Shown here piece after piece: positions 6,519 through 63,114 of a DNA stretch of 64,000 nucleotides (the first letter of the stretch is position 1; each line of letters opens with the position of its first letter). The notes under the pieces were generated by a model. It searched no databases, was not told where the DNA came from, and saw only the letters and a program-made list of their open reading frames with translations. This DNA is from Dechloromonas sp. TW-R-39-2 (GTDB taxonomy: Bacteria > Pseudomonadota > Gammaproteobacteria > Burkholderiales > Rhodocyclaceae), in contig NZ_CP045202.1 in the NCBI RefSeq assembly GCF_016864195.1, positions 124,001 through 188,000 of the forward strand, in the 5' to 3' direction. The translations under genes and the position numbers were made by a program.

Positions 6519-7289
6519 ATGCCTGCCACGCGCCAGCCGCTCTCCGTTGCGATCATTACGCTCAATGCCGCCTCCCAGCTCGAGGATTGCCTGAAAAGTG
6601 CGCGCTTTGCCGACGAGATCATCGTTGTCGACTCAGGCAGCACCGACGGCACGGTGGCGCTGGCCGAACGTTACGGCGCCCGCGTCATCCAGCAAGACTG
6701 GCTGGGCTTCGGGCCGCAAAAACAGTTTGCCGTCGACGCGGCAAGCCACGACTGGGTACTCTGCCTCGATGCCGACGAACGAGTCAGCCCGGCCTTGCAG
6801 ACAAGCATCGAAATTGCCCTGCAACAGCCGTCGACCGCAGCTTTCCGCTTTCCACGCTGCAATCGCTTCCTCGGCCGCTACCTAAAACACGGCGAGGGTT
6901 ATCCCGACTGGAGCCTGCGCCTGTTCGACCGCCGTCAGGCACGCTGGTCGGACGATGCCGTCCATGAAAAAGTCGAAACCCGCGCCACCATCGGCCAACT
7001 GTCGGGCGATCTGCTGCACGACTCGGCCGAATCGCTGGCCAGCTACCTGACCAAGCAAAACCGCTACACCACGCTGGCCGCCGACATGGCACTGGCGGCG
7101 GGCAAACGGGCAAGCTTCGGCCGCATTGCCTTCAGCCCGCTGGTCCGCTTCATCAAGTTCTACCTGATCCGCCAGGGTTTCCGCGACGGTTTGCCCGGCC
7201 TGATCCACATTGCCATCGGCTGTTTCAACAGCTTCATGAAATATTCCAAAATGCTGGAACGTCAAAAATCCGATGCGACGTTGCGGTAA
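6519..7289 (+). CDS. Family 2 glycosyltransferase (WaaE/KdtX-like LPS core)
   Basis: 256 residues. The N-terminal GT-A fold shows SVAIITLNAASQLEDCLKSA, EIIVVDSGSTDGT and the metal-binding LCLDADERV. The C-terminal part (HEGEGYPDWSLRLFDRR, DDAVHEKV, then LSSYLTKQNRYTTLAA-type text) is typical of the WaaE/KdtX group, which adds a glucose to the LPS inner core. The position beside waaC/waaA supports a core-LPS role. The exact acceptor and sugar are inferred. A hydrophobic C-terminal helix (FIKFYLIRQGFRDGLPGLIHI) suggests membrane association. Confidence 0.85.
   Translation: MPATRQPLSVAIITLNAASQLEDCLKSARFADEIIVVDSGSTDGTVALAERYGARVIQQDWLGFGPQKQFAVDAASHDWVLCLDADERVSPALQTSIEIALQQPSTAAFRFPRCNRFLGRYLKHGEGYPDWSLRLFDRRQARWSDDAVHEKVETRATIGQLSGDLLHDSAESLASYLTKQNRYTTLAADMALAAGKRASFGRIAFSPLVRFIKFYLIRQGFRDGLPGLIHIAIGCFNSFMKYSKMLERQKSDATLR
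6830..6841 (-). repeat. 12-mer repeat GCTGCGGTCGAC, copy 1
   Basis: Exact copy, minus orientation, inside the family 2 glycosyltransferase gene, where the coding strand reads S-T-A-A. Confidence 0.9.
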
Positions 7290-7319
7290 AATCACCTTTC
7301 CATTGCCACGGGTAAGCCC

Positions 7320-8327
7320 ATGAAAATTCTTGTGACCGGCGCAGCCGGATTTATCGGCATGACCACCTCGCTGCGCCTGCTTGCGCGCGGCGACGAAGTC
7401 GTCGGTCTGGACAACCTGAACGATTATTACGAAGTCAGCCTGAAGGAAAACCGCCTGGCCCGACTGACCAGCCACGCCAACTTCCGCTTCATCAAGCTCG
7501 ACGTTGGTGACCGGGCCGGCATGGAAGCCCTGTTCGCCAGCGAAAAGTTCGACAAGGTGATTCACCTTGCCGCTCAGGCCGGGGTTCGTTACTCGCTGCA
7601 GAATCCGCACGCTTACATCGACAGCAATCTGGTCGGCTTCACCAATATTCTCGAAGGCTGCCGCCACAACAAGGTGGCGCATCTGGTTTACGCCTCCAGC
7701 TCCAGCGTTTATGGCGGCAATACCAAGATGCCGTTCTCGGAACACGACAGCGTCGACCATCCGGTCAGTCTCTACGCCGCCAGCAAAAAGGCCAACGAGC
7801 TGATGGCCCACACCTACAGCCACCTGTTCGGCCTGCCGACGACCGGGCTGCGCTTCTTCACGGTCTACGGCCCATGGGGTCGCCCGGATATGGCGCTCTT
7901 CCTGTTCACCAAGGCCATTCTTGAAGGTCGTGCCATCGACGTCTTCAACCACGGCAACATGCAGCGCGACTTCACCTACGTCGACGACATCGTCGAGGGC
8001 GTCATCCGCGTGCTCGACAAGAATGCTGCGGTCAACGCCGAATATGATGCGATTTCCGCCGATCCGGCGACGAGCAATGCGCCTTACCGCGTGTTCAACA
8101 TCGGCAACAACAATCCGGTCCAGTTGCTCGACTTCATCGGCGCCATCGAACAGGCGCTCGGCAAGACGGCAGAGAAGCGCCTGCTGCCGCTGCAGGACGG
8201 CGACGTCCCGGCGACCTATGCCGATACTTCGCTGCTCAACGACTGGGTCGGTTTCGTCCCAGGCACGCCCATCCAGGAAGGCGTTGGCCGCTTCATCGCC
8301 TGGTATCGCGATTACTACAAGGTTTAA
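7320..8327 (+). CDS. NAD-dependent epimerase, UDP-glucuronate 4-epimerase type
   Basis: 335 residues, an extended short-chain dehydrogenase/reductase. The Rossmann motif is at residues 4-11 (VTGAAGFIG), followed by the substrate loop [17 protein letters not shown] characteristic of CapI/WbpV-like UDP-glucuronate 4-epimerases. The catalytic Ser region is SSSSVYG, YxxxK is YAASKK, and the C-terminal [19 protein letters not shown] is conserved in the group. It interconverts UDP-glucuronate and UDP-galacturonate, giving precursors for LPS or capsule. The neighbouring waa genes and glmS, 9 bases downstream, fit a cell-surface sugar operon. Confidence 0.87.
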
Positions 8328-8336
8328 GGATCAGTC

Positions 8337-10160
8337 ATGTGTGGCATCGTCGCGGCAGCAGCCGGCAACAACATCGTTCCCGTCCTCGTTGAAGGGCTGA
8401 AGAAACTCGAATACCGGGGCTATGACTCGGCCGGGATTGCCGTCATCGGCAGCGCCGAAATCGAACGTGTCCGCTCGGTCGGCCGGGTCGCCGAGCTTGA
8501 AGCCGCTTCGGCCGCGACCAGCGCCACAACCGGCATTGCCCACACCCGCTGGGCAACGCACGGCGTGCCATGCGAACGCAACGCTCACCCGCACGTTTCC
8601 GGCACGATCGCCGTCGTTCATAACGGCATCATCGAAAATTACGAAAGCCTGCGCAGCGAACTGACGGCCCAGGGTTATGTCTTCACGTCGGACACTGACA
8701 CCGAAAGCATCGCCCACCTGATCGAAGCCACGTTGAAAAGCGAGCCCGACCTGTTCAAGGCCGTGCAGATTGCCTGCCGCCGCCTGGTCGGCGCCTTCGC
8801 CATCGCCGTCATCGACCACAGCCAGCCGGGCAAAATCGTCGTCACCCGCGAAGGCTCGCCCTTGCTGCTCGGCGTTTCGGAAACCGGCAACTACGCCGCA
8901 TCCGATGCCTCGGCGCTGCTCCAGGTCACACGCAACATGGTCTATCTGGAAAATGGCGATATTGCCGAGTTGACCGCGACATCAGTCCGCATCACCCGGC
9001 TCGACGGCACGCCGGTCGAGCGTCCGGTGCATGTCTCGCAACTCTCGGCCGCCGCTGTCGAGCTGGGCAATTACCAGCACTACATGCAGAAGGAAATCTT
9101 CGAGCAGCCGGAAGCCCTGGCCAACACACTGGAAATCGTCGGCGGCAGCAAATCGATCCAGCCCGGCATTTTCGGCGCAGAAGCCGCCAATTTACTGGCC
9201 GATATCGACTCGATCCTGATTCTTGCCTGCGGCACCAGCAGCCATTCGGGCTTCACCGCCCGTTACTGGCTGGAAGCCATTGCCGGTGTGCCGTGCAATG
9301 TCGAAATCGCCAGCGAATACCGCTACCGCACTTCGGTACCGAACCCGCGCCAGCTGATCGTTGCCATTTCCCAATCCGGCGAAACAGCCGATACGCTGGC
9401 CGCCCTGCGCCATGCCAAATCGCTCGGCCAGACCAAGACGCTGGCCATCTGCAACGTGCCGGAATCGGCCATCGTTCGCGAATGCGCCCTGCGCTTCATC
9501 ACTCGCGCCGGCCCGGAAATCGGCGTTGCCTCAACCAAGGCTTTCACCACCCAGCTCGCCGCGCTCTTCCTGCTGGTACTGGTCATGGCCAAGGTGCGCC
9601 AGCAACTGAGCGCCGAACAGGAAGCCATCTATATCGAACAACTGCGCCACCTGCCTGTCGCGGTCAACAAGGTCCTCGACCTTGAATCGGATATCGAAGC
9701 CTGGGCCAAACGTTTTGCCGACAAGCACCACGCCCTTTTCCTCGGTCGCGGCCGGCACTACCCGATTGCCCTTGAAGGTGCCCTGAAGCTCAAGGAAATT
9801 TCCTACATTCACGCCGAAGCCTATCCGGCCGGCGAATTGAAACATGGCCCGCTGGCGCTGGTTGATGCCAACATGCCGGTCATTTCGGTTGCCCCGAACG
9901 ATCAGTTGCTCGACAAGCTGAAGTCGAATCTCAAGGAAGTCCAGGCACGCGGTGGCGAGCTTTATGTCTTCGCCGATGCCGACTCGGAGATTCCCGAATC
10001 GGAAGGCGTGCACATCCTGCGCCTGCCGGAACATTACGGCGAACTCTCGCCGATCCTTCACGTCATCCCGCTGCAGTTGCTGTCTTACCACGTCGCACTG
10101 GTCAAAGGCACCGATGTGGACAAGCCGCGCAACCTGGCCAAATCGGTCACCGTCGAATAA
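8337..10160 (+). CDS. glmS: Glutamine--fructose-6-phosphate aminotransferase (isomerizing)
   Basis: 607 residues, the standard GlmS length. [11 protein letters not shown] places the catalytic Cys directly after the initiator Met, as in all class II glutamine amidotransferases. The glutaminase domain (1-240) has RWATHG and [12 protein letters not shown]. Two SIS domains follow (about 285-430 and 455-600) with [31 protein letters not shown] and the C-terminal signature [12 protein letters not shown]. It makes glucosamine-6-phosphate for peptidoglycan and LPS. The stop codon overlaps the apaH start by one base. No glmS ribozyme is expected in proteobacteria, and there is no room for one upstream. 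Confidence 0.97.
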
Positions 10161-12994: not shown

Positions 12995-12999
12995 GGATT

Positions 13000-13948: not shown

Positions 13949-15040
13949 TCAAGGGTAAAAAACGTAAAGACGATAACCGGCAGCACCGATGTCCTTGGCT
14001 TCGACCCACAGACGAATGGCGAGTTCGCCATTGGCCGGGAAGGAAACCGGACTGATGCCCGGCGGCAGGTAGTCAGGCGCCAGCAGGACACGACGTGAAA
14101 CGACCATGTCATGCACGTCGGTCAGCGTCAGTTCGAGCGCCGGCCACGCCTGGGCATGTGCCGCACGGTTGCGCAGCGCTGCCTGCAGGACGAACAGGCC
14201 GCGCGCATTGTCGGACTGCAAATCGGAGGATTCGATGGCCACCAGATCGGAATCCTGCGGCAAAGGCACGTCGACCGCAGCAAGGGCGTACAAGCCCGCC
14301 AGATCGGGTATGCGACGCACCAGATCGGTCCGGAAGTGGAACAGCAACTGGCAGGACAAGGCGATGCCGAGGACAATGGAAACGAGCACGAAGGGCCAGG
14401 TCGCCGCATGCTCGGTTTCATGGCTGAATCCGCCCATGCCGTTGCCGGCCAGCGCACCCGCAGCCCAGCGGTTGTAAGCCGGGGTATCGCTCAACTCGCG
14501 CGCGGCAACCAAGCCTGCTTCGCGCGCAGCGAGTGTCGACTCTTCCGTTGTTTCGATTTTCTCGACTGACTGCGCTGTCGGCTCGTTCAAAGGCTCGACC
14601 AGCGGCGGCAACTCGGGTGGAGCCGAAGAAGCTTCGGGCTCGAAAACCTCTTCCGGCTCATCAGGCACGACAACCGGTGCCGGGACATCGACCGTTTGAA
14701 TTTCAAGCGCAAGTGGAACTTCCGGCTCCGCCGGGAGTTCGATTTGCTGAACGGGCTCGACAGGCTGAACCGACGGTTCGTCGAACGACGGGCAGACTGG
14801 CTCGGGCGGCCTGGTGGCAGCAACGACGGGCGGCGGCACCGGGGCCTGCCGAACCGCTGGCGGGATTGCCGCCGGCGGTTCCGGCACAACGGGGACAGCC
14901 GGTGGCTCATCTTCGAGCAAGGCCTCGAAAGCATTGAAAATTGAGTCGCAATGGCCGCAACGGACCTTGCCCGCCCGAAGGCGCAACTGCTCGGAGGTAA
15001 CACGAAAAATCGTGCTGCAAACCGGGCAGCGTGTCCGCAT
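13949..15040 (-). CDS. MJ0042-type zinc-ribbon and DUF3426 membrane protein
   Basis: 363 residues from the ATG at 15040, which overlaps the prmA stop by one base. The N-terminus is a zinc ribbon with two CxxC pairs (RCPVCSTIFRV and VRCGHCDSIF). A long Pro/Glu/Val-rich low-complexity region runs from about 45 to 200. One transmembrane helix (WPFVLVSIVLGIALSCQLLF, about 225-244) precedes a C-terminal DUF3426 domain (RNRAAHAQAWPALELTLTDV, ELAIRLWVEAKDIGAAGYR). The topology suggests a cytoplasmic zinc ribbon and a periplasmic C-terminal domain. The pairing with prmA is common in beta-proteobacteria. The function is unknown. Confidence 0.85.
   Translation of the reverse strand: MRTRCPVCSTIFRVTSEQLRLRAGKVRCGHCDSIFNAFEALLEDEPPAVPVVPEPPAAIPPAVRQAPVPPPVVAATRPPEPVCPSFDEPSVQPVEPVQQIELPAEPEVPLALEIQTVDVPAPVVVPDEPEEVFEPEASSAPPELPPLVEPLNEPTAQSVEKIETTEESTLAAREAGLVAARELSDTPAYNRWAAGALAGNGMGGFSHETEHAATWPFVLVSIVLGIALSCQLLFHFRTDLVRRIPDLAGLYALAAVDVPLPQDSDLVAIESSDLQSDNARGLFVLQAALRNRAAHAQAWPALELTLTDVHDMVVSRRVLLAPDYLPPGISPVSFPANGELAIRLWVEAKDIGAAGYRLYVFYP
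14270..14281 (-). repeat. 12-mer repeat GCTGCGGTCGAC, copy 2
   Basis: Exact copy preceded by T, minus orientation, inside the DUF3426 gene; read as A-A-V-D. Confidence 0.9.
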
Positions 15041-17299: not shown

Positions 17300-17749
17300 T
17301 CAGCCAATCACGAACAGCGGTTCGCCGAATTCAACCGGTTCGCCGTTGTCGAGCAGGATGGCCTTGACCACGCCGGAAGCATCCGCTTCGATCTCGTTGA
17401 GCAATTTCATGGCTTCGATGATGCACAGGGTCTCGCCCTGCTTGACCGTCTGACCGATCTGGACGAATGCATCGGCACCCGGCGACGGCGAACGGTAGAA
17501 GGTACCGACCATCGGCGACTTGACGACGTGGCCTTCCGGCAATTCGTCTTCATCATCGAGGTTGACCGCGGAAACGGCCGGCGCACCCGCTGCAACCGGC
17601 GGCGGAGCGGCATAGTATTGCTGGGGTGCGGCAACGGCGCCGTAATGCTTGGCAATACGCACCTTTTCTTCGCCTTCGGTCACTTCCAACTCCGAAATAC
17701 CGGATTCCTGAACGAGGTCGATGAGTTTTTTGAGTTTACGCAGATCCAT
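17300..17749 (-). CDS. accB: Biotin carboxyl carrier protein of acetyl-CoA carboxylase
   Basis: 149 residues. The N-terminal [20 protein letters not shown] is the classical BCCP start, then an Ala/Pro-rich linker (about 40-70). The C-terminal biotinyl domain carries [16 protein letters not shown] and the biotinylation motif [11 protein letters not shown], with Lys near residue 115. The protein shuttles carboxybiotin between AccC and the AccAD transcarboxylase. It is the first gene of an accB-accC-prmA group and follows aroQ, a widely conserved order (aroQ-accB-accC). Confidence 0.97.
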
Positions 17750-20316: not shown

Positions 20317-20328
20317 GCTGCGGTCGAC
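20317..20328 (+). repeat. 12-mer repeat GCTGCGGTCGAC, copy 3 (intergenic)
   Basis: Exact copy preceded by T, two bases after the mpl stop codon and 21 bases before the bidirectional terminator. It is non-coding, so protein conservation cannot explain it. Confidence 0.9.
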
Positions 20329-20348
20329 TGACCGCACGAGCCAAAAAC

Positions 20349-22769: not shown

Positions 22770-24833
22770 TCAAAATCGATACAAAATGCTCGCCCGCAGG
22801 CTGCGCGGCTCGGCCGGATGTAGGTGACGATCGAATACCGGACCGGCTTCACCGGCCAGTCGGGACTCATACCAATATTCGATGTCATTTAGTTTGCGCG
22901 CGAAGAGGTTGTACACGTCGAGCGTCAACTGCGTCCGGCGATCGTACTTGTACCCGATCCGCAAGTTGGTCAAGGCGGATGGCGCAGCCCGTACCGAGTT
23001 GTCTTCGACCAACGGCCGCGAACCGAAGTAGCGCAAACGTAGCGCACCGAACCAGGCCCCAAGGTGATCCAGCGTCACGCCCAGATTCGCCGTTCGCGAG
23101 ACCGCCCCCGGAATGTCGTTACCCAGCACGCCGGGATCGATGAAGCGGGCTTGCGACCAGGAAAAATCAGCATCGAAGGCAAGCCAGTCGGCGGGTCGGT
23201 AAAAATTGGTCCACTCCACGCCGCGTCGACGGGAAGGGCGCGATGCTTCGGTCGTGCCGGCATCGCCGACAAAAACCAATTCGGATGCCGCCTCCAGTTG
23301 CCAGAGTGCCACGGTCGACTGCCAGCCTGAGACGATTTCAGAACGCACACCGGCCTCGTAACCTTTGGCACGCACCATGGGTTTGACTTTATCGACCGCA
23401 TCGCCACTCGCCGGATCACGCGAAATCGTCGTTCCGCGAGCATCGTTCGAATGGAAGCCATGACCATAATTGGCGTACAGCTCGGTCTTTTTCCACGGGC
23501 CGAACACCAGTGCCAGCTTGGGCGTCAGCATCTGATCGCCGGCCTTGCCCGAATTGGCGGCCTGATTGGCGTCGACCACAAAATCGTAGGCATTGGCCCG
23601 CAAACCCTGCACCGAACGAAACCATGATGTCCAGCGGACTTCATTTTGAGCCCAGAACGCCAGGCTGCGCTGGGTTACACGATCCTCGCGCACGGTATTC
23701 CAGACCTCGCGCTGGCGGGTGTTATATAGCCCGACCGGACTTAGACGGTCGATCCGCCCCTGCCAGCCGACGGCATTACTGACATCAAAATCACCCCAGC
23801 GATCAAAAACTGTCTGCGTCAGGGCAAAACCGCCCGCCTGACGCCGCTCGCTTTGCTTGAACTGGTCACCACCGGCGCAACCTCCCGTGGCGGCGATATC
23901 GTTCAGGCAATACTGAAAATTGGACCATAAATCGAGACCTGATTTCAGCCACCAGACATTGGCCTTGCGCTGGCTGTTTTCCCCGCGTGCCGCCCAATCG
24001 CCGGACAGGCTGTAGCGGAATGTCCGCCCGCCCGTCGTCGAATCGAGCGTCCCGAAGCGGTCGACCGTGCCACGATCAATTGCACGCTGGGCAATCTGGT
24101 CGGTCGAGGTCCACTGGCCCTGATAAGCCATGCCGGTCAGCGACCAGCCGTCGTGACGCGTTCCCTGGCTGTAACGCAACACGCCGTTGAGTTTCCGGTA
24201 ATGCTCACCAACCTGCCACGGGCCGTCATTGTGAAAAACCTCGAGGCCGTACAACAAGCGCCCAGCCAACGAGTCGGGCGATCCGGCCAGCAATGTCCGG
24301 GCGTATCCATTCGGCCCTAGCGTCACCTGGGCCAGAGAACTGTCCAGGCGGCGAAAATAGTCGATATGCGCCGCACCGGCCGATGAAAAATCCCCTTCAT
24401 CGGCGTAATACGGGCCTTTTCTGAAAATGATGCGGTCGACCAGCTCAGGAATCAGAAAATTGAGATCGGTGTAACCCTGGCCGTGCGCGTGAGCAGGCAT
24501 ATTGACCGGCACACCGGCAACCGTCGTCGCAAAATCGGTTCCGTGATCAAGATTGAAACCCCGCAAGAAATACTGATTGGCCTTGCCGTCACCTGCATGC
24601 TGGGTAACGATCAGGCCGGGCACCATTTCAAGCACCTCACCGGGACGCAAGATCGGTGTAGCCGCCAGGCGCTGGCTCGAAACCACACCTTCACTGCCGG
24701 CCAGGGCAATTCCCTGCAAATTTTCAGCCTGAGCACGCACTTCAACTGCCGAAAGCTCCGTTGCCTCATGCCCGTGGGCCGCCCCCAGCGCACCCCACAA
24801 ATAGGAATAAATTATTTTTTGTCTTATTTTCAT
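22770..24833 (-). CDS. TonB-dependent outer-membrane receptor, probable nickel (or nickel-chelate) receptor
   Basis: 687 residues. A short signal peptide (WGALGAAHG region) is followed by a plug domain: SAVEVRAQAENLQGIALAGS, SSQRLAATPILRPGEVLEMV, GLIVTQHAGDGKANQYFLRGF and NLDHGTDFATTVAGVPVNMP. The 22-strand barrel ends in an aromatic residue (SLRASILYRF). The plug contains the His-rich HAHGQGYTDLN. It is immediately downstream of a NiCoT nickel permease and near nikR, so nickel uptake is the best inference; the ligand is not proven. A terminator-like hairpin ends 4 bases before the ATG, and no Shine-Dalgarno is present at normal spacing. Confidence 0.85.
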   Translation of the reverse strand: MKIRQKIIYSYLWGALGAAHGHEATELSAVEVRAQAENLQGIALAGSEGVVSSQRLAATPILRPGEVLEMVPGLIVTQHAGDGKANQYFLRGFNLDHGTDFATTVAGVPVNMPAHAHGQGYTDLNFLIPELVDRIIFRKGPYYADEGDFSSAGAAHIDYFRRLDSSLAQVTLGPNGYARTLLAGSPDSLAGRLLYGLEVFHNDGPWQVGEHYRKLNGVLRYSQGTRHDGWSLTGMAYQGQWTSTDQIAQRAIDRGTVDRFGTLDSTTGGRTFRYSLSGDWAARGENSQRKANVWWLKSGLDLWSNFQYCLNDIAATGGCAGGDQFKQSERRQAGGFALTQTVFDRWGDFDVSNAVGWQGRIDRLSPVGLYNTRQREVWNTVREDRVTQRSLAFWAQNEVRWTSWFRSVQGLRANAYDFVVDANQAANSGKAGDQMLTPKLALVFGPWKKTELYANYGHGFHSNDARGTTISRDPASGDAVDKVKPMVRAKGYEAGVRSEIVSGWQSTVALWQLEAASELVFVGDAGTTEASRPSRRRGVEWTNFYRPADWLAFDADFSWSQARFIDPGVLGNDIPGAVSRTANLGVTLDHLGAWFGALRLRYFGSRPLVEDNSVRAAPSALTNLRIGYKYDRRTQLTLDVYNLFARKLNDIEYWYESRLAGEAGPVFDRHLHPAEPRSLRASILYRF

Positions 24834-25805: not shown

Positions 25806-27143
25806 TCAGTTGCTTTCCACCGGCAGTGCAAGAATGAATTCCGCTCCGCCTTCCGGGCGGTTGGCCGCACTCAGTTTGCCGCGATGCCGCTCGACGATGC
25901 CGTAGCTGATCGACAAACCCAGCCCGGTTCCCTGGCCAACCGGTTTGGTCGTAAAAAACGGTTCGAACAGGCGTCCCAGATTCTCGGCCGGGATACCCGG
26001 TCCGTTGTCACTGAATATCAAGCTGAGTTGGCCCGAAGCAACCGAGCCGCGAATAACCAGACGGGCATCGCCGACATGGAGTGTCGCGTCGCAGGCGTTC
26101 TGTACCAGATTCATCACCACCTGCTGCAACTGACCAGAGGAGCCGGAACAGCGCAAATCGGGCGGCAAATCGACGTCGACCGCGAAACGGGCCGACGCAC
26201 TTTGTACAACCCAGCGCACAGAACGCTCGATCACATCATTAAGACAAACCAGCTCCGGGAGCGTCTTGTCGACCGCAGAAAAGCGCTTCAGGGCATCGAC
26301 AATGTCGCGCGTCCGTTCCGCGCCTTCGATCATCCCGTCGATCAACAACGGCATGTCGGCCAGAATGCGATCGATGCGCAGGGACTGGCGCAATTCGATC
26401 AGTGCGGCATCGTCCGCCACGCTGGTGGCATGAACCGCCCCCAGGTAGCTTTCGAGACGGCTGGCGTAACGCTGCAATGACAGCACGTTGCCCAGGACAA
26501 AGCTGATCGGATTATTCAATTCGTGCGCCACCCCGGCCACCAGGCGCCCCAGCGACACCATTTTCTCGGCGTGCAACAACTGGCCCTGGGTTCGCTTCAG
26601 GTCGTCATGCGCTTGTCGCAAAGCCTGATAAGCCCGGCGCAATTCACCGACCGGCCGACCGGTCACCACCATCCCCATCAGCTTGCCCGTCTGCGAAACG
26701 CGCGGCGTGCAATTCATCGAGACCGGCACGGTCGACCCATCGCCGGCCCGCAAAAAGAATTCGCAGTCATGCACGCCTTCGCGGCCAAAACGGGCAAATA
26801 CTTCGCGCGCCCTGGCACGTTCGATTTCATCGGCAAAAAGATCGAATACCGGCGTTTTTTCAAGTTCCTGCGCACTTTTCCCGGAGAAGTGCAGCAACGA
26901 GGAATTGACCTCGATGATGCTGCCCTGACGGTCGCAGACGATCAGAATGTCGGATATCGACGTCAGTACGCTTTCGATGAACTGGTGAGACTCCTCCAGC
27001 GCAGCATTTTTTTCTTCAAGGGCGACTTCGTACTGGAGCAGGTCGTTGTAGACCTCGTCCATCTTCTGGATAACCTCGATCCAGGCCTGCTCGCCCAGCC
27101 CTTCGCCGGTAGCCGGATCAGCGGACGGGACGGTAATGGACAT
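25806..27143 (-). CDS. hoxJ: PAS-domain sensor histidine kinase of the H2-sensing system (HupT/HoxJ type)
   Basis: About 445 residues from the ATG at 27143, chosen because AGGG lies 9 bases upstream; the frame stays open to 27194. A short coiled coil (EVALEEKNAALEESHQF) precedes a PAS domain (about 50-165: ILIVCDRQGSIIEVNSSLL, FFLRAGDGSTVPVSM). The phospho-acceptor His lies in GVAHELNNPISFVLGN (about residue 207), wording typical of HupT/HoxJ. The HATPase domain has NLVQNACDAT, FSDNGPGIPAE and GTGLGLSISYG. No transmembrane helix is seen. It should act with the HoxBC sensor and HoxA, whose genes lie 7-13 kb away. It overlaps nikR by 26 bases. Confidence 0.82.
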   Translation of the reverse strand: MSITVPSADPATGEGLGEQAWIEVIQKMDEVYNDLLQYEVALEEKNAALEESHQFIESVLTSISDILIVCDRQGSIIEVNSSLLHFSGKSAQELEKTPVFDLFADEIERARAREVFARFGREGVHDCEFFLRAGDGSTVPVSMNCTPRVSQTGKLMGMVVTGRPVGELRRAYQALRQAHDDLKRTQGQLLHAEKMVSLGRLVAGVAHELNNPISFVLGNVLSLQRYASRLESYLGAVHATSVADDAALIELRQSLRIDRILADMPLLIDGMIEGAERTRDIVDALKRFSAVDKTLPELVCLNDVIERSVRWVVQSASARFAVDVDLPPDLRCSGSSGQLQQVVMNLVQNACDATLHVGDARLVIRGSVASGQLSLIFSDNGPGIPAENLGRLFEPFFTTKPVGQGTGLGLSISYGIVERHRGKLSAANRPEGGAEFILALPVESN

Positions 27144-27582: not shown

Positions 27583-27585
27583 AAA

Positions 27586-27996: not shown

Positions 27997-28020
27997 TCAA
28001 ATGCTTCCTTTTCCCGAGAA

Positions 28021-28524: not shown

Positions 28525-28534
28525 GGCTGTATTC

Positions 28535-29874: not shown

Positions 29875-29893
29875 CTCATCTCCAAACACACGA

Positions 29894-47537: not shown

Positions 47538-48429
47538 GATTCAATTCCACGCTATACGGCACACAGGGATCGAGCGCCAGAATGGCCTGATCGAGCGCCA
47601 GACGCGCCTCGGCTGCATGAGCAAAGGTCCGCCCGGCCAGTAACGCGGTCAACGCGCCGGCATCGGCAAAAAGCGCATCGGTCGGCGCATCGACACGGTA
47701 ATTGAGCACCCGTCCATCGACAAGGTGCACCGCATGGGTCAGCACACCGCGCGCCGTCAGCGTCTGCCCGACGCCCCAAGCCGCCTGAGCGGCAGCCGCA
47801 ATCGGAAAGGGGGCACCGGCAGCCAGCGCCTGCCCGGCCCGTTCAACCTCAGCCAGACGGGCACGATATGCGGCGACGACCGTTGCCGGACGATGTACGG
47901 CCGGCGGCGATGCGGCATTGCCCTGCCAGAAAGCCAGCCAGTCCTCGGCATTCAGCAAGGGGCTGGAGCAATCCGCCGGCGCGTCGCGGTCGACCAGCTT
48001 TTCAAGGCATTTTTCACTGACATCGAGCAAGGCCGTATCGAGCAAATGCCGGGTCGTGCTGATGCACTCACTGCCCTGTCGCCCGGCCCGCCAGGCGACA
48101 AAAGCTTCCTTGGCCGGCGCCAGGCCGAGGGCCAGCGGCCAGTCGAGCAACAGACGCCAGAGATTCTCGTGCAGTACCTCGATCCACAACTCGGCATCAT
48201 CGACCGGCCGGCGCGACTCGCCCTGTGCTGCGGCCAGCGCTGCCTGCGCCGCCGCGCGCTGGGCATGGGCACACAAGGTATAAAGATAGGGAACCGTCTT
48301 GACCACCGCCTCGGGAATCTGGTCGATGAACAAGCGGGTCACGGCCGGTCGCCGGAGCTCGACGTCAATCGCGGCCAGATGCGCGCCCTGCAGCTGCGCC
48401 CGAACGGTCAGCAAACCGGTTGAGGTCAC
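47530..48429 (-). CDS. hupK: Hydrogenase expression/formation protein HupK (HoxV-like)
   Basis: 299 residues from a GTG at 48429 overlapping the hupJ TGA (GTGA). The sequence looks like a degenerate hydrogenase large subunit: PYLYTLCAHAQRAAAQAAL in place of the N-terminal CxxC and ALDPCVPYSVELN near the C-terminus in place of DPCxxCxxH. That is the known character of HupK/HoxV, proposed to act as a scaffold for the Fe(CN)2CO unit. It bridges the hup and hyp parts of the operon. Confidence 0.85.
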   Translation of the reverse strand: MTSTGLLTVRAQLQGAHLAAIDVELRRPAVTRLFIDQIPEAVVKTVPYLYTLCAHAQRAAAQAALAAAQGESRRPVDDAELWIEVLHENLWRLLLDWPLALGLAPAKEAFVAWRAGRQGSECISTTRHLLDTALLDVSEKCLEKLVDRDAPADCSSPLLNAEDWLAFWQGNAASPPAVHRPATVVAAYRARLAEVERAGQALAAGAPFPIAAAAQAAWGVGQTLTARGVLTHAVHLVDGRVLNYRVDAPTDALFADAGALTALLAGRTFAHAAEARLALDQAILALDPCVPYSVELNHA

Positions 48430-49969: not shown

Positions 49970-50424
49970 GCGCAGGCTCCTGGCTGATCGGCCGAACGAA
50001 CGGGAATGCCGATGGGTTTGGGTTGAGCCGGCCCGGTCAGCAGGCGGGTCACTTCATTCTGGTATTCGAACCAGTCACGGATGCCGTTGAGCATGCCGAC
50101 AAACTGGCCGTCGCGCAGGAAGACAACGGCAGGCGCACGAGCCACACCGTATTGCTTCATCAACCCGGCGCTGACCAGATGATCGGCGACCCGGCGGGAA
50201 ATCTGTTCGCCCAGCGGCTTGAGGGCTTCCGGCAGGATGACGCAGGCGTCGAGTACTTCCAGGTTGCGCTGCGGATCATCGGTCAGCAGCAAGGCGGTCA
50301 GCCCGGCGGGAAAATCGGGATTGCTGCGGTCGACACGTTGAAAACCGTGTTTCTGGACCATCCGGCTGATTGAAGTATCAAGTCGGTCGAGCGAAGTCAG
50401 CCCGGGGGCAAGTTGCAGCGTCAT
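49966..50424 (-). CDS. hupG: Hydrogenase accessory thioredoxin-like protein HupG (HyaE/HoxO)
   Basis: 152 residues with the HyaE/HupG fold: HGFQRVDRSNPDFPAGLTAL, LTDDPQRNLEVLDACVILPE, SRRVADHLVSAGLMKQYGVA and PAVVFLRDGQFVGMLNGIRD. It is thioredoxin-like but lacks the redox CxxC, as usual. It is thought to chaperone the Tat-targeted small subunit. It overlaps hupF and hupH by four bases each. A copy of the 12-mer repeat lies inside it (50323-50334). Confidence 0.9.
   Translation of the reverse strand: MTLQLAPGLTSLDRLDTSISRMVQKHGFQRVDRSNPDFPAGLTALLLTDDPQRNLEVLDACVILPEALKPLGEQISRRVADHLVSAGLMKQYGVARAPAVVFLRDGQFVGMLNGIRDWFEYQNEVTRLLTGPAQPKPIGIPVRSADQPGACA
50323..50334 (+). repeat. 12-mer repeat GCTGCGGTCGAC, copy 9
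   Basis: Exact copy preceded by T, plus orientation, antisense within hupG, whose codons there read V-D-R-S. Confidence 0.9.
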
Positions 50425-53933: not shown

Positions 53934-55025
53934 TTATTTTTCTCCCTTTTGTTCTTCAGTCTCGCCCGCCTTCTGACGAGCACGAGCCAGCGCCGTCACG
54001 GCGGCGTGGGCAGCAATCGCCGCACCCACGGTGCCGGCAGCTGCCTTGCCAATCGAATCGGCATTGGCTTCAACCCCAAAAGCCTTGATGTCGGTAACGC
54101 GGTCGTAGAACGACCCCTTGTCCCAGAAACCATCTTCCGAACAACCGATACAGCCGTGGCCGGACTGCACCGGCCAGCTGACGCCGCCATTCCAGCGCAT
54201 CGACGAGCAGGCGTTGTAGGTGGTCGGACCCTTGCAACCCATTTTGTACAGGCAGTAGCCCTTGCGCGAACCTTCGTCATCCCAGGCTTCGGCGAACTGG
54301 CCGGCATCGAAGTGGCCGCGGCGATAACACTTATCGTGGATACGTTGACCGTAGAACATCTTCGGCCGGCCCTGGCGATCCAGCTCGGGAATGCGGTCGA
54401 AGGTCAGCATGTAGGTGACGACGCCGGTCATCACCTCGGCAATCGGCGGGCAGCCCGGCACGTTGATGATTGGCTTGCCGGTGATCACCTTGTGCACCGG
54501 CGTGGCGCGTGTCGGGTTCGGCTTGGCAGCCTGGACACAGCCGTAGGAAGCGCAAGCGCCCCAACTGATGATGGCCTTGGCATCGGCGCAGGTTTCGCGC
54601 AGCTTCTCGATGAAGGGGCGACCGCCCTGGATGCAGAACATGCCGTCTTCGTTCAAGGGCGGATTACCTTCGACGGCAACGATGTAATTACCCTTGTACT
54701 TCTTCTTGACCTCGTCGAGGATCGCCTCGGCCTGGTGGCCGGCGGCGGCCATCAGCGTGTCGTCGTAATCGAGCGACAGCATCGAGAGCACGACATCCTT
54801 GGTCAGCGGATGCGCCGAGCGGATGAAGGATTCGGAGCAGCAGGTGCATTCCAGGCCGTGCAGCCACAACACCGGCGTGCGCGGCTTGGTTTCCAGCGCA
54901 TGGGCGATGGTTGGCGCGGCGGCACTACCCAGCCCCAGCGAGGTGGCAGTCAGGCTGCAGAATTTGAGAAAACTGCGACGGGTAATCCCCTGGCGACGCA
55001 GCACTTCGTAGAATGTCTCGCTCAC
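53934..55025 (-). CDS. hupS: Uptake [NiFe]-hydrogenase small subunit HupS, oxygen-tolerant type
   Basis: 363 residues from a GTG at 55025. GGGGGAG lies six bases before that GTG, whereas the upstream ATG (55040) has no ribosome site and the family normally begins [20 protein letters not shown]. The Tat motif TRRSFLK is at 15-21, with cleavage after AHA (43). In mature numbering, LECTCCSES gives C17, C19 and C20, and ASYGCVQAA provides the sixth cysteine (C120-type); these six ligands define the [4Fe-3S] cluster of oxygen-tolerant group 1d enzymes. A C-terminal hydrophobic helix ([19 protein letters not shown]) anchors it to HupC. Confidence 0.96.
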
Positions 55026-55304: not shown

Positions 55305-58300
55305 ATGCCCCGAATAGTCGACCTGATCACCCCGCACACAGCCCAGGTGGCCCTGCACGCCAGCCTTGGCGAGGCGGCTGCGCTGATGGTCGAGTTACGT
55401 ATTTCATCGGTCATCGTGGTCGATGCCGAAGGGGTACACGGCATCGTCACCGAAGGCGACATGATGCAGGCCATGCGCCAGCATCGCACGCTTGACCAGG
55501 CGGTGCAGGAAGTCATGACCGCGCCCGTACACACTGTTCCGGCTGAGATGGATTTTCGTCACGCATATCGCGAAGCGAGCCAGCTCGGCATCCGCCACCT
55601 GGTCGTCATCGACAAGGACGGAAAGCCGCTTGGCGTCGCGTCTGAAACCGATTTCCGCCATCACCTGGGGCCCGACTTCTTTCGCCATCTGAACGATGTC
55701 GACACATTGATGGAGCGGACCTTCCCGCGCCTGCCAGCCACCACCCGCCTCGACGACGCCATTTCCGCCATGGCCGCCGTCCGCGCCACCTGCGTGGTCG
55801 TGGTCGATGGACGCAAGCCGCTCGGCATCGTCACCGAGCGCGACGTCGTCCGGCTTTTTCTGGGTGCCAACTTCAATCCCGAACTGGGCAGCGTGATGAC
55901 CCAGCCGGTCGTCACGGTCGAAGAAACCTCTTCGCTGGCCGATGCCGCCGAACGCATGGTCGAACACAGAATTCGGCATCTGGTGGTCGTCGACCGCGGC
56001 GGCCAGGTATCCGGGCTGTTGTCCGAACACACCTTGATGCGCCCGCTCGAACTTGACCTGCTCGACGATGCCATGGCCGAACGCATGGCCTTGATGCGTT
56101 CGCGGGATGCTGCCGTCGAACAGTCGCTGCGCAATGAACGCTACCAGCGCGCCCTGCTCGACAACTTTCCCTTCCTGGTCTGGCTGAAAGACACGGAATC
56201 ACGCTTCCTGACCGCCAATCGCGCTTTGGCCGAGGCCCTCGAACTCGACTCGGTCAATGCACTGATCGGCAAGCGCGACACTGATTTTTCGCCTATAGAG
56301 CTGGCTGATCGCTACCGTGCCGACGATGCGGAAGTGATGCAAACCCGGCAGCAAAAAACCGTGCTCGAACCCGTCATCAAGCATGGTTTGCAGATCTGGC
56401 ACGAGACATTCAAGGCGCCGGTATTCGGCGACAACGGCACGCTGCTCGGCACGGTCGGCTTCGCCCAGGACATTTCTGCCCGCAAGCGCAGCGATGAAGC
56501 CATGCTGCTGCGCAATGCAACGCTCGCCGGCCTGATTCGCGGCGAACCGCTGATTGGCATTCTCGAATTGCTGATTCTTTCGATCGAAGCTGAGAACCCA
56601 GCCTGGATGTGCTCGATTCTGCTGGCCGAAAAAGATGGCCAGCATCTTTTTCACGGCGCCTCGCCTCGCCTGCCGGACGACTACATTGCCGCCACCGGAC
56701 GCATTCCCGTTGCCGAAGGCGTCGGCTCCTGCGGCACGGCAGCCTACCGGCGCCAACAAACCATCGTCAGCAACGTACACAACGATCCGCTGTGGCAACC
56801 CTGCCTTCACCTGGCACAACTCGGTGACTTCTCCGCCTGCTGGTCAGACCCGATCATCGGACCGCAAGGCGAATTGCTCGGCACTTTTGCCTGTTATCAG
56901 AAAAATCCCGCCACACCGAGCGAACAGGACCTGAATCAGCTCAACCAGGCCAGCCAGTTGGCGGCGCTGGTCCTGACCAATCAGCGCAACACCGACAATC
57001 TGCAGGAAAGCCTGGAAACTTTCCGGGGAATTTTCGACAGCATCAGTGAAGCCATTTTCATCCAGTCCGAAGATGGCTGCTTTCTTGACGCCAACCTCGG
57101 TGCCGAACGCCTCTCGGGCCACACCCGGGACTATCTGCACGGCAAGCACTACAGCGAATTCGGCGCCACCGGCCTGAATAATCCGGAGGTCATGAAAGCA
57201 CAAGTCAGCGAAGCTTTTTCCGGCCGGCCCCGGTTGCTCGAATTCTGGGGGCAGAACGCTGCCGGCAAAATATTTCCGGTCGAAGCCCACCTGCATGCCG
57301 GCACCTATTTCGGTCGTAAGGCACTGATCATCTCGATTCAGGACATCAGCGAGCGCAAAAACGCCAAATTGCGCCTCGATATCGAACATGATCTGGCCTT
57401 GGCCCTGGCTGCCGGCATGGCGCGAGAAGAAGTCCTGGCCACCATCCTGCATGCGGCCCTGCGTTTTCCTGAGCTCGATTCGGGCGGGATTTACTGGCGC
57501 CAGCCGGATGGCCGCTACCATCTTGTGGCTCACGAAGGGCTATCGCCCGAGTTCATTGCCCAGGTCGGCGAAATTGCTGGCGACTCACCGCAAGCCGGTA
57601 TCGTCCAGGATGGCAAACCGGTCTGCAACTGCACCCCCGCCTGCGAGCACTGCAACAACACCGAACTGATCAATAGCCCGCTAATGCAGGGCGAAGGACT
57701 GCGCTGCCTGGTCATCCTGCCCATCGCCGTTGCCGGCCAGCCGGTTGCCTGCCTGAATCTGGCCGGGCACCGGACACGACAAATCACCCATGCAACCTTG
57801 CTGGCCCTGGAAACCCTGGCCGGCAACTTCAGCCAGACGCTTTCCCGCCTGCAAGCCCAGGAAGAAGCCCAACGCCTCCAGCAGAATCTGAATGGCCTGT
57901 TCGACACCCTGGCCGACTATATTTTGATTTTCGACATGCAGGGCCGCATCCTGCACTACAACCGCTCGGTGGCAGAAAACCTGGGCTACGGCCCGGATGC
58001 CTTGCGTGGTCAACCGGTTACCGCGGTCCACCCGGCCGAAGCACATGAAATGGCCGGAAAAATGGTCGAGGACATGATCAGCGGCACGCGTTCGACCTGC
58101 ACCTTGCCGATTCTGCACGTCGACGGGCATGAAATCATCGTCGAAACCCGGATTACGCAGGGCTACTGGAATAGCCAGCCGGCGTTGTTCGGCATTTCCC
58201 AGAACATCAGCGAGCGTCTGGCGGCAGAAGAGCGTCAGAAACTGGCCGCCAGTGTTTTCGACAACGCCCACGAAGGCATCATGATCACCGATGCTCATGG

Positions 58301-60311
58301 GCAGATCATCGAAGTTAATGCGACTTTCAGCGAGCTGACCGGCTATGCGCGTGACGAAGCAATCGGCCAGACAGCCGATCTGCTCAAATCCGGCCACCAC
58401 GATCCGGTGTTTTATCAGGAAATGTGGCAGACCATTCGCCAGGAAGGCTTCTGGCGCGGCGAGGTCTGGAATCGCAAGAAAACCGGTGAGATTTTCGTCG
58501 AACAATTGACCATTTCGACCGTTCGCAACCGAAATGGCGAAATATCGCAATTTGTCGGCATTTTCTCCGACATCACGCTGATCAAGGAGCATCAGCGCCG
58601 TCTCGAACACCAAGCCCACTTCGATGCCCTGACCCAGCTCCCCAACCGGATGCTGCTCGGCGACCGCATGCAACTGGCGATGGCCCAGACCGAGCGCAGC
58701 GGCAAGACGCTGGCCGTCTGCTATCTCGACCTCGACAATTTCAAACCGGTCAACGACGCCTACGGCCACGCCACCGGCGACCGTCTGCTGATCGAGGTGG
58801 CGCAACGCCTGAAAATCTGCGTCCGGGCCGGTGATACGGTGTCCCGACTGGGTGGCGACGAATTTGTCCTGCTCCTGGCTGGCCTCGAAGACGTGCATGA
58901 ATGCGACCACGCAATCGCCCGGATCATTGCCGCACTGACCCAGCCGTTCATCATCAGCAATCATGCCGTGACGATATCGGCCAGTATCGGCGTCACGCTC
59001 TACCCGGAAGATGGCGCCGATTCGGACACGCTGCTGCGCCACGCCGACCAGGCGATGTACGCCGCCAAGCAGGCCGGCCGCAATCGCTACCACTTGTTCG
59101 ACCCGGAAAACGACCGGCGTGCCCGCGTGCGGCGTGACGAAATCGCTGCCATTTGCCAGGGCATGGTCAATAACGAATTCGTGCTGCACTACCAGCCCAA
59201 GGTAAACATGCGCGAAGGGCGTGTCGTCGGCGTCGAGGCCCTGATTCGCTGGCAGCATCCCGAACGCGGCCTGCTCGCACCCGGCCAGTTCCTCCCCGCC
59301 ATCGAAGGCAGCGAACTGGCCATCGAGCTCGGCGACTGGGTGATCCAGGAAGCCTTGCGCCAGCTTGAGCGCTGGCGCAAGCAATCGCTCGACATCAAAG
59401 TCAGCGTCAACATTGCCGGCAACCATTTGCAAAGCCCGAGCTTTGCCCGCCGCCTGAGCGAATTGCTCGCCGCACACCCCAACATTCAGCCGCATCGGCT
59501 GGAACTTGAAGTCCTCGAAACGGCTGCGCTTGAAGACATCGGGCATGCCGCCGAGCTGTTCGCCACCTGCCGACGCCTCGGCGTCAGTTTCTCGCTGGAC
59601 GACTTTGGCACCGGCTATTCATCACTGACCTACTTCCGGCGCCTGCCGGCCGATGTTCTCAAGATCGACCAGTCCTTCGTCCGCGACATGCTGGATGACC
59701 CCGACGACCTGGCCATCGTCGAAGGCGTCATCGGACTGACCAAGGCCTTTCAGCGCGAAGTGATCGCCGAAGGGGTGGAAACGGTAGAACATGGTTTGGT
59801 TCTGCTGCTGCTCGGTTGCGATCTGGCGCAAGGTTTCGGCATCGCCCGCCCGATGCCCGCCGAGCAACTCCCCGACTGGGTGCGTCACTTCCAGCCGGAT
59901 GCCCTGTGGAGTTCCGCCACGGCGTTTCGCTGGTCGCGCGACGACTTGCCGCTGCTGATCGCCGAAGTCGACCACAAGCGCTGGAAGCGCTCGCTCTACA
60001 CTTACCTCAGCACACCGAACGATGCCGCCAGGATGCCCCCAAAAGATACGCATCAGTGTCGTTTGGGGCGCTGGTTCTACAGCGAGGAAAGCAAACGCTA
60101 TGCTGCGGTCGACTGCTTTTCTTCGATCGAAAACATTCATACGCGAATCCATCAACTCGGCCAGGAATTAATTGCGCTGCATGACGCAGGATCGAGCGAA
60201 GGTAGCGAAAAACTCCTGCTAGAGCTCGAAGCAGCCAGCGCGCGATTTGTCGAACATATCGAACAAATCCAGGCCGAGGTACTGATCGCCGATCAGACCA
60301 GTAGACGATAG
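55305..60311 (+). CDS. Giant CBS-PAS-GAF-GGDEF-EAL-CZB sensor for cyclic di-GMP turnover
   Basis: 1668 residues from the ATG at 55305 (AAGGA 8 bases upstream). Order of domains by my reading: four CBS motifs (1-265), PAS (276-395), GAF (400-565), PAS (568-688), GAF (690-850, with the Cys cluster CNCTPACEHC), two PAS (855-1095), GGDEF (1100-1262, intact RLGGDEFVLL near 1182), EAL (1275-1525, intact VEALIRWQHP and DDFGTGYSSLTYF), and a C-terminal CZB zinc-binding domain (about 1550-1660, DHKRWKRSLY, HQCRLGRWFY, NIHTRIHQLG). No membrane helix is visible. Both synthase and phosphodiesterase motifs look functional. It diverges from hupS. Confidence 0.9.
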   Translation: MPRIVDLITPHTAQVALHASLGEAAALMVELRISSVIVVDAEGVHGIVTEGDMMQAMRQHRTLDQAVQEVMTAPVHTVPAEMDFRHAYREASQLGIRHLVVIDKDGKPLGVASETDFRHHLGPDFFRHLNDVDTLMERTFPRLPATTRLDDAISAMAAVRATCVVVVDGRKPLGIVTERDVVRLFLGANFNPELGSVMTQPVVTVEETSSLADAAERMVEHRIRHLVVVDRGGQVSGLLSEHTLMRPLELDLLDDAMAERMALMRSRDAAVEQSLRNERYQRALLDNFPFLVWLKDTESRFLTANRALAEALELDSVNALIGKRDTDFSPIELADRYRADDAEVMQTRQQKTVLEPVIKHGLQIWHETFKAPVFGDNGTLLGTVGFAQDISARKRSDEAMLLRNATLAGLIRGEPLIGILELLILSIEAENPAWMCSILLAEKDGQHLFHGASPRLPDDYIAATGRIPVAEGVGSCGTAAYRRQQTIVSNVHNDPLWQPCLHLAQLGDFSACWSDPIIGPQGELLGTFACYQKNPATPSEQDLNQLNQASQLAALVLTNQRNTDNLQESLETFRGIFDSISEAIFIQSEDGCFLDANLGAERLSGHTRDYLHGKHYSEFGATGLNNPEVMKAQVSEAFSGRPRLLEFWGQNAAGKIFPVEAHLHAGTYFGRKALIISIQDISERKNAKLRLDIEHDLALALAAGMAREEVLATILHAALRFPELDSGGIYWRQPDGRYHLVAHEGLSPEFIAQVGEIAGDSPQAGIVQDGKPVCNCTPACEHCNNTELINSPLMQGEGLRCLVILPIAVAGQPVACLNLAGHRTRQITHATLLALETLAGNFSQTLSRLQAQEEAQRLQQNLNGLFDTLADYILIFDMQGRILHYNRSVAENLGYGPDALRGQPVTAVHPAEAHEMAGKMVEDMISGTRSTCTLPILHVDGHEIIVETRITQGYWNSQPALFGISQNISERLAAEERQKLAASVFDNAHEGIMITDAHGQIIEVNATFSELTGYARDEAIGQTADLLKSGHHDPVFYQEMWQTIRQEGFWRGEVWNRKKTGEIFVEQLTISTVRNRNGEISQFVGIFSDITLIKEHQRRLEHQAHFDALTQLPNRMLLGDRMQLAMAQTERSGKTLAVCYLDLDNFKPVNDAYGHATGDRLLIEVAQRLKICVRAGDTVSRLGGDEFVLLLAGLEDVHECDHAIARIIAALTQPFIISNHAVTISASIGVTLYPEDGADSDTLLRHADQAMYAAKQAGRNRYHLFDPENDRRARVRRDEIAAICQGMVNNEFVLHYQPKVNMREGRVVGVEALIRWQHPERGLLAPGQFLPAIEGSELAIELGDWVIQEALRQLERWRKQSLDIKVSVNIAGNHLQSPSFARRLSELLAAHPNIQPHRLELEVLETAALEDIGHAAELFATCRRLGVSFSLDDFGTGYSSLTYFRRLPADVLKIDQSFVRDMLDDPDDLAIVEGVIGLTKAFQREVIAEGVETVEHGLVLLLLGCDLAQGFGIARPMPAEQLPDWVRHFQPDALWSSATAFRWSRDDLPLLIAEVDHKRWKRSLYTYLSTPNDAARMPPKDTHQCRLGRWFYSEESKRYAAVDCFSSIENIHTRIHQLGQELIALHDAGSSEGSEKLLLELEAASARFVEHIEQIQAEVLIADQTSRR
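60102..60113 (+). repeat. 12-mer repeat GCTGCGGTCGAC, copy 10
   Basis: Exact copy preceded by T, plus orientation, in the CZB-domain region of the GGDEF-EAL gene; read as A-A-V-D. Confidence 0.9.
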
Positions 60312-62375: not shown

Positions 62376-62393
62376 AACGCCAACAGAGAAACA

Positions 62394-62417: not shown

Positions 62418-62431
62418 CTTGCCCTTTTTGT

Positions 62432-62473
62432 TTGATGATCATCAATCTGTCGGTACACTGGCGCGTTCATAAT
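62432..62473 (+). promoter_or_regulatory. Perfect FNR box and -10 element for the ccm operon
   Basis: TTGAT-GATC-ATCAA (62432-62445) is an exact FNR consensus palindrome. CATAAT at 62468-62473 is a good -10; the predicted start near 62480 is 41.5 bases from the box centre, the class II activation geometry. It predicts oxygen-limited induction of cytochrome c maturation. Confidence 0.82.
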
Positions 62474-62505
62474 TTGCGCCTGAATTCTTTCGGTTTTTTC
62501 CCTTG

Positions 62506-63114
62506 ATGCTTGAAGCAGACAACCTCGAATGCGTACGTGGCGAACGCCGCCTGTTTTCAGGCGTCGGGTTTCGCCTGGAGGCCGGCGAACTGCTTTATCT
62601 GCAAGGCAAAAACGGGGCCGGCAAGACCAGTCTGTTGCGCATGCTGATCGGCCTGCTGCCACCGGAAGCCGGGGAAATCCGCTGGCAGGGCAAGCCGATC
62701 GGCAGTGACGATTTTCGTGCCGATCTCTGCTACCTCGGCCATCTGAACGCCATCAAGGAAGAATTGACGCCGCTTGAAAACCTGCTCGCGGCAGCGAGCC
62801 TGGCCGACACAACGCTGTCCGAAGACGATGCTCTCGACGCACTGGAGCAAGTCGGGCTGGCCGGACGCGAAGACCTTGCCTGCAAATATCTTTCGCAAGG
62901 CCAGAAACGCCGGGTCGCACTGGCTCGCCTGGTCACCGAAAAACGCCCCCTGTGGATTCTCGACGAGCCGTTTGTGGCGCTCGATGTTGCTGCGGTCGAC
63001 TGGCTGGCCGGCATCATTTCCGGCCACCTCCAGCGCGGCGGGCTGGCGGTCATGACAACGCACCAGCTGGTCAGCATTCCGGCCGGGCAGGTTCGCGAAT
63101 TGCGCCTCGGTTAA
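62506..63114 (+). CDS. ccmA: Heme exporter ATP-binding protein CcmA
   Basis: 202 residues from the ATG at 62506. ABC motifs: Walker A LQGKNGAGKTSLLRMLIGLL, signature KYLSQGQKRRVALARL, Walker B WILDEPFVALD and the switch His TTHQLV. With CcmB it forms the ATPase that releases holo-CcmE during cytochrome c biogenesis. It is the first gene after a perfect FNR box; ccmB follows by 10 bases. A copy of the 12-mer repeat lies in the segment coding AAVD after Walker B. Confidence 0.95.
   Translation: MLEADNLECVRGERRLFSGVGFRLEAGELLYLQGKNGAGKTSLLRMLIGLLPPEAGEIRWQGKPIGSDDFRADLCYLGHLNAIKEELTPLENLLAAASLADTTLSEDDALDALEQVGLAGREDLACKYLSQGQKRRVALARLVTEKRPLWILDEPFVALDVAAVDWLAGIISGHLQRGGLAVMTTHQLVSIPAGQVRELRLG
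62989..63000 (+). repeat. 12-mer repeat GCTGCGGTCGAC, copy 11
   Basis: Exact copy preceded by T, plus orientation, in ccmA just after Walker B; read as A-A-V-D. Confidence 0.9.

Follow-up and report, generated by a model that had tools for sequence, protein, structure and literature searches.

In the sections of the papers drawn on here, uptake sequences are described for two bacterial families only, and the uptake signal sequence (USS) consists of a 9-nt core with GCGG followed by two discontinuous A/T regions downstream, present in 1,465-2,206 copies in H. influenzae (PMC12616744, PMC7811141, PMC1626085, PMC3630211). These sections also give the USS dialect letters 5' of the core and an origin by point mutation (PMC12616744, PMC1626085), and they present the DNA uptake sequence (DUS) of the Neisseriaceae as continuous, like GCCGTCTGAA, and as free of A/T segments (PMC1626085). 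The repeat considered here was noticed, in an initial annotation, in a window of 64,000 nucleotides from Dechloromonas sp. TW-R-39-2 (bases 124001-188000 of the one contig, of 3,462,267 bases, that makes up the genome) as a 12-mer, GCTGCGGTCGAC, which turns out to be the commonest spelling of a longer motif. The annotation had offered, as an inference, either an uptake sequence or an iterated protein-binding site. Judging from sequence comparisons, the former is favoured: we put at about 85% the probability that the repeat is a DNA uptake sequence belonging to a third lineage of such sequences. This reading fits its excess over the whole genome, its equal use of the two strands, its change by substitution, its strict core, and its dialects within one genus.

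The 11 exact copies reported for the window, six on the plus strand and five on the minus strand, were all recovered at their positions, nine of them preceded by T as had been said. All of the six or more reported sites with one mismatch exist (exact starts, where corrected, 13705, 15529, 26268, and 61833), and two others, at 8025 and 55989, bring these to eight. The 19 copies with at most one mismatch compare with a mean of 0.63 in dinucleotide shuffles of the window, and the exact word has an expectation of 0.07 there under a third-order Markov model. The over-representation that had been claimed proved to be an understatement: genome-wide, the exact 12-mer occurs 121 times in the forward and 121 times in the reverse orientation, against 0 and 1 for the reversed word, which served as a control. 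For the core CGGTCRAC accompanied by a downstream A/T triplet, the genome-wide count is 774 + 778 = 1,552, and that of the control 27 + 30 = 57. The window itself contains 52 cores, about one per 1.2 kb, 32 of which have the triplet (shuffle mean, 0.47).

Such counts might simply reflect base composition, codon usage, or a common peptide, and 29 of the 57 exact copies within genes do lie in the frame that reads AAVD. These copies come from a sample that combines the window with 40 evenly spaced 20-kb stretches and covers 864 kb, or a quarter of the genome (5 kb are masked); 743 coding stretches were predicted in it by a simple codon model. When codons were shuffled synonymously within each gene (60 runs), the 57 exact copies were replaced by a mean of 1.7 and at most 6, and the 520 cores by 123. 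Moreover, 11 of the 68 exact copies in the sample are intergenic, the others lie in unrelated proteins and several reading frames (as the initial annotation had said), A/T tracts outside the word co-occur with it, and two relatives of similar G+C content, G034 and G060, lack the motif. An origin in composition or peptide usage is, consequently, deemed refuted, with next to no probability left to it. The annotation had named two results that would speak against it, a count near the codon and Markov expectation and an excess peculiar to the window; the count is far above that expectation, and the excess is not confined to the window.

As to the unit of repetition, the 12-mer proposed at the outset is a real word, but the true unit is longer, looser, and equipped with downstream A/T tracts, and the 12-mer should give way to a discontinuous motif of about 33 nt. 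This motif is asymmetric and reads T-G-Y-Y-G-CGGTC(G/A)AC, then two A/T tracts 10-11 bases apart, the consensus of its first part in this genome being TGCTGCGGTCGAC. In the 864-kb sample, T precedes the exact 12-mer in 58 of 67 copies (68 are present, one of them too close to an end). In the same 67 copies, an A/T block lies 27-30 bases downstream of the first G (78, 96, 94, and 88% A/T versus a background of 42%), with a weaker block at +18 to +20, and no other comparable conservation is found in the flanks from -50 to +61, save a fading edge at +31/+32. If all CGGTCRAC sites are considered, and positions are counted from the C of CGGTC, an A/T triplet is present at +24 in 62% of them (background, 7%), with a second peak at +14 (24%); the distance between the two peaks gives that between the tracts.

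The core is nearly invariant apart from R, whilst the 5' flank is loose. A table of the one-mismatch variants of TGCTGCGGTCGAC contains 0-2 copies per substitution at positions 5-10, 12, and 13, and noticeable variation only at positions 1-4 and at the G in position 11, the change of which to A is found in 26 copies, 21 of them with the A/T triplet. In the genome, G precedes CGG in 74% of 372 sites with core and A/T triplet. The core contains GTCRAC, which looks like a modification site, and the motif could then be recognized by a restriction, methylation, or phage-defence system. The excess, however, needs both the CGG side, which is not palindromic, and the A/T tract at a distance, and restriction usually depletes its own sites, so that this origin is very unlikely. 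In the window, 10 of the 11 exact copies carry the triplet; all 11 and the other triplet-bearing sites are as follows:

6811..6841, minus: exact 12-mer (6830-6841) with A/T tract
14251..14281, minus: exact 12-mer (14270-14281) with A/T tract
20317..20347, plus: exact 12-mer (20317-20328) with A/T tract, intergenic
35444..35474, minus: exact 12-mer (35463-35474) with A/T tract, double-headed with the opposite core at 35461
35916..35946, plus: exact 12-mer (35916-35927) with A/T tract
38588..38618, plus: exact 12-mer (38588-38599) with A/T tract
39968..39998, minus: exact 12-mer (39987-39998) with A/T tract, overlapping the opposite core at 39985
43955..43985, minus: exact 12-mer (43974-43985) with A/T tract, double-headed with the plus-strand core at 43972
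50323..50334, plus: exact 12-mer, the only one of the 11 without the A/T triplet at +24
60102..60132, plus: exact 12-mer (60102-60113) with A/T tract
62989..63019, plus: exact 12-mer (62989-63000) with A/T tract
8025..8055, plus: variant GCTGCGGTCAAC (12-mer with one mismatch) with A/T tract
5163..5189, minus: core CGGTCGAC with A/T triplet at +24
8950..8976, minus: core CGGTCAAC with A/T triplet
9661..9687, plus: core CGGTCAAC with A/T triplet
17542..17568, minus: core CGGTCAAC with A/T triplet
23312..23338, plus: core CGGTCGAC with A/T triplet
24041..24067, minus: core CGGTCGAC with A/T triplet
24433..24459, plus: core CGGTCGAC with A/T triplet, one-mismatch 12-mer at 24429
26156..26182, minus: core CGGTCGAC with A/T triplet
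26729..26755, plus: core CGGTCGAC with A/T triplet
27264..27290, plus: core CGGTCAAC with A/T triplet
33870..33896, minus: core CGGTCGAC with A/T triplet, the core just upstream of the listed start of the PilY1 open reading frame (ORF)
35461..35487, plus: core CGGTCGAC with A/T triplet, double-headed with 35463 minus
39293..39319, plus: core CGGTCAAC with A/T triplet
42213..42239, plus: core CGGTCGAC with A/T triplet
43972..43998, plus: core CGGTCGAC with A/T triplet, double-headed with 43974 minus
45572..45598, minus: core CGGTCGAC with A/T triplet
45956..45982, minus: core CGGTCGAC with A/T triplet
47646..47672, plus: core CGGTCAAC with A/T triplet
47987..48013, plus: core CGGTCGAC with A/T triplet
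54325..54351, minus: core CGGTCAAC with A/T triplet
55970..55996, minus: core CGGTCGAC with A/T triplet, one-mismatch 12-mer at 55989

The sites are kept in a largely collinear relative, G030, of which 320 kb were aligned at 94.9% identity. Of 260 cores compared, 233 are unchanged (the figure for random 8-mers is 67-69%), and so are 29 of 35 exact 12-mers (versus 57%). Where the core has its A/T triplet, 153 of 161 are intact, with 8 substitutions in 1,288 core bases against about 5% overall; where it does not, 80 of 99 are intact. The triplet itself remains A/T in 158 of 162 cases (2,498 of 3,000 for triplets taken at random). The core and the tract further downstream are therefore conserved jointly. 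All eight of the changed tract-bearing cores differ by single substitutions, which bears on the idea of a small mobile repeat, resembling miniature inverted-repeat transposable elements or repetitive extragenic palindromic sequences, that multiplies by copying. Although this would account for the high copy number, no comparable conservation extends upstream of the T that precedes the 12-mer or beyond about +32, the changes are single substitutions, and the two orientations are equally frequent; such a repeat is extremely unlikely.

With the origin near 0.38 Mb and the terminus near 2.16 Mb (both placed by eye from the GC skew), the cores of the 864-kb sample are split evenly between leading (302) and lagging (298) orientation, and for want of a replichore bias a polar replication motif of the Chi or KOPS (FtsK orienting polar sequence) type was rejected. 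Neither this bias nor an even spacing, both of which the initial annotation had thought worth looking for, was found: over 40 bins of 20 kb, the number of sites has a mean of 13.7 and a variance of 20.9, a spacing no more regular than chance would give. A regulatory site was likewise rejected, as cores have no intergenic preference (79 of 600, or 13.2%, versus a noncoding share of 13.0%; reversed control, 12 of 192). Relative to the genes, 285 are on the same and 234 on the opposite strand.

The enrichment between genes that the initial annotation had proposed to look for is missing for cores overall and is present for one class of site. Overlapping cores on opposite strands, which form the palindrome CGGTCGACCG, occur 50 times in 864 kb; the overlap is favoured by GTCGAC, the self-complementarity of which also explains the single offset of these pairs. 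Eighteen of the 50 (36%) are intergenic (p = 3e-5 against 13%), and a role as terminators, as with USS pairs, is therefore possible. The one copy that had been described as intergenic beside a terminator is that at 20317, adjoined by an inverted repeat at 20349-20388 that ends in T's. Four stretches of the genome, L044, L057, L070, and L075, have 4, 6, 7, and 6 cores, respectively, versus the mean of 13.7 per 20 kb, and a G+C content of 54.5-56.3%; they may be recently acquired DNA.

Among 76 scanned genomes of the genus, for which the label Azonexus/Dechloromonas was inferred, cores with the triplet number 429-2,410 in 40 genomes, 141-210 in 8, and fewer than 100 in 28. The count is at most 56 in 373 genomes of 67 other genera, a sample of the family, and the GCGGTCRAC form reaches at most 25 in 368 other genomes, a sample of the class, versus 1,070 in the genome under study. 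When 15 named genomes were counted, Dechloromonas sp. H13 proved to be the single rich one, with 1,181 copies against 33 for the control; the counts in the remaining 14 are 9-46. Among the genomes scanned, the motif is restricted to one genus and is shared by about half of the members searched.

Samples of 100 kb from each of twelve relatives revealed the motif in eight and not in G060, G034, G089, or G018. Together with the genome under study, this gives nine rich genomes, in which CGGTCRAC is common to all and at least five 5' dialects can be distinguished: TGTTG or TGCTG precedes the core in G008, G020, and G024, a looser TG in G087, TGCTG with CAAC favoured in G098, an AG-type in G063, TGCCA with CAAC favoured in G085, and TTTCA in G061. 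A is commoner than G before CGG in G061 and G085. The A/T tracts exist in all eight motif-bearing relatives at an offset equal to within about a base, the first tract being weaker in some rich genomes. In orthologous DNA, where the initial annotation had suggested that conservation be sought, the eight rich relatives retain 48 of 104 core positions (about 12 would be shared by plain identity), and for the four poor relatives the figure is 5 of 41 (rich versus poor, p = 1e-4); the 5' letters have changed at many of the shared sites, often to the relative's own dialect. Beside its dialect, G061 has another word in high copy number, around GGGGCTTCCG / TCCGGGGCTT, with 20-22 copies in 100 kb (L150-L154), which is perhaps a local repeat.

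These distributions help to evaluate another explanation, in which the repeat is the recurring target of a protein of the chromosome or nucleoid, involved in structuring, segregation, or a recombination hot-spot and unrelated to uptake. A strict core with bend-prone A/T tracts does resemble a protein site, and the sites are maintained against mutation. Yet the cores show neither the strand or replichore bias nor the intergenic preference discussed above, their spelling differs between species, and many members of the genus are without the motif; an essential chromosome function would hardly tolerate such variation and absence within one genus. We consider this explanation unlikely.

If the repeat is an uptake sequence, it would mark DNA as self during the uptake of free DNA. 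Its strict core, G-CGGTC-R-AC, would be bound by a minor pilin located at the type IV pilus tip, the likeliest receptor being a FimT/ComN-like or a ComP_DUS-family pilin encoded in the window. The A/T tracts that follow the core, both on the same helix face, may help the DNA to bend or kink, which would assist its passage through the outer membrane as the retracting pilus pulls. ComEA and ComEC would then carry the DNA in, and RecA would recombine it. Since labelled DNA from kin would enter more often, uptake and recombination would add and repair copies, so that sites would build up, arising by point mutation wherever the protein tolerates them; drift of the receptor could give groups of species their own 5' dialects. 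Competence, an uptake bias, the identity of the receptor, and the role of the A/T tracts are all inferred here. ComEC, ComEA, and type IV pilins are all encoded in the genome, and the window contains a minor-pilin operon:

29894..30460, minus: FimT/GspH minor pilin, first receptor candidate; the database protein P0001 starts 23 residues after the listed ORF start
27586..27996, minus: PilE-type minor pilin of the PF16732 ComP_DUS family (E = 3.9e-20), second receptor candidate
28021..28656, minus: PilX-like minor pilin (PF14341)
28535..29347, minus: PilW-like minor pilin (PF16074)
29344..29889, minus: PilV minor pilin (TIGR02523, above cut-off)
30388..33879, minus: PilY1/PilC tip adhesin (PF05567)

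The FimT of the window has the FimT/GspH fold, which has DNA-binding relatives, and members of PF16732 are widespread PilE-type pilins. The 6.6 kb of the operon (27272-33888) contain no core site, and the identity between its pilins and their G030 counterparts is 47-70%, versus 95% for the aligned DNA. Among the relatives of FimT outside the genus are P0023 and P0024 of Undibacterium (53% and 50% identity), and no core site was found in the 21.8-kb locus of another Undibacterium species (L233), hinting at a transfer of pilin genes without the motif.

Several observations weigh against an uptake sequence. The FimT and PilE of the window share only 55% and 47% identity with their G030 counterparts, even though the two genomes have one dialect, and this divergence speaks against a simple lock between receptor and dialect for these two pilins. 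The genes for ComEC, ComEA, FimT, and ComP_DUS also occur in motif-poor members of the genus and do not, therefore, explain by themselves why genomes are rich or poor. In some rich genomes, comEC is in pieces (G002, and also G019 and G008, where the pieces are on different contigs). DNA that has no match in G030 is not clearly poorer in sites (4.6 versus 5.1 per 10 kb, a comparison made against sampled G030 stretches, so that some DNA may be unmatched artificially), and identity does not rise around sites in the alignment with G030. In the literature searched, which comprised part of the matches and few subscription journals, no report of competence in the genus was found; nor was there, within the same limits on subscription journals, one of an uptake sequence in Rhodocyclales, Dechloromonas, or Rhodocyclaceae. 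We know of no measurement of uptake.

Among 51 high-quality genomes of the genus, FimT is absent or interrupted by a stop in 3 of 20 that are not rich and in 0 of 31 that are, a weak difference (p = 0.055, with G008 counted as present on a partial profile match). As regards a co-variation of receptor and dialect, the pilins are very divergent and the dialects sampled are few. In G089 (C1:2216501-2221500 and 2247501-2251900; L335, L336) and in G002 (C33), comEC is split at one identical position of the profile and its pieces lie about 33 kb apart; G019 (C39/C72) perhaps shows the same arrangement across contigs. In G089, the first piece is directly followed by an ORF of 597 amino acids that, from its letters, resembles a large serine recombinase, and comEC therefore seems to be the target of an integrative element.

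Members of Azonexus/Dechloromonas include perchlorate reducers and polyphosphate accumulators, and gene flow among them would, if the repeat is an uptake sequence, be channelled by dialect. A third lineage, in which one genus has species that are rich in the motif, poor in it, or spell it differently, would also constitute a comparative system for asking what makes uptake sequences evolve, how their dialects change, and what serves as the USS receptor. These betaproteobacteria are free-living, and it is possible, though more doubtful than not, that theirs is a third uptake-sequence family whose GCGGT(C) core and pair of A/T tracts are recognized by the FimT/ComN pilin fold that would serve in the Pasteurellaceae as well; one recognition code, conserved or evolved anew, would then span beta- and gammaproteobacteria, and a single genus would have more dialects than the two known USS types.

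Those features of uptake sequences in general that can be read from sequence are found here: high copy number in both orientations, taxon-specific dialects around a shared core, competence genes, and point change in place, in the form of substitutions relative to G030 and changed 5' letters at orthologous sites. The likeness to the DUS and ComP of the Neisseriaceae lies in the copy number, in the dialects within one taxon, and in a minor pilin as receptor, for which this genome offers a candidate and indeed encodes a ComP_DUS-family pilin (PF16732). The DUS, however, is continuous, with another core and without A/T segments. ComP requires two disulfides, for which the two cysteines of the PilE in the window are too few.

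The USS of the Pasteurellaceae (Hin-USS, AAGTGCGGT; Apl-USS, ACAAGCGGT) is closer: it shares with the present motif the order of copy number, the GCGG inner core followed by T (and by C in the Apl 10-mer), two 3' A/T-rich segments about one helical turn apart, dialect letters 5' of the core, and an origin by point mutation. In the present motif, by contrast, the strict part is longer (CGGTCRAC, 12-13 nt with its flank), the A/T segments lie further off (+12 to +16 and +23 to +27 from the core C), the 5' letters are different, with A commoner before CGG in two relatives, and the host is betaproteobacterial, with about 60% G+C. Neither Pasteurellaceae 9-mer is matched by the consensus of this genome, and the motif is USS-like rather than one to be filed as a Pasteurellaceae USS.

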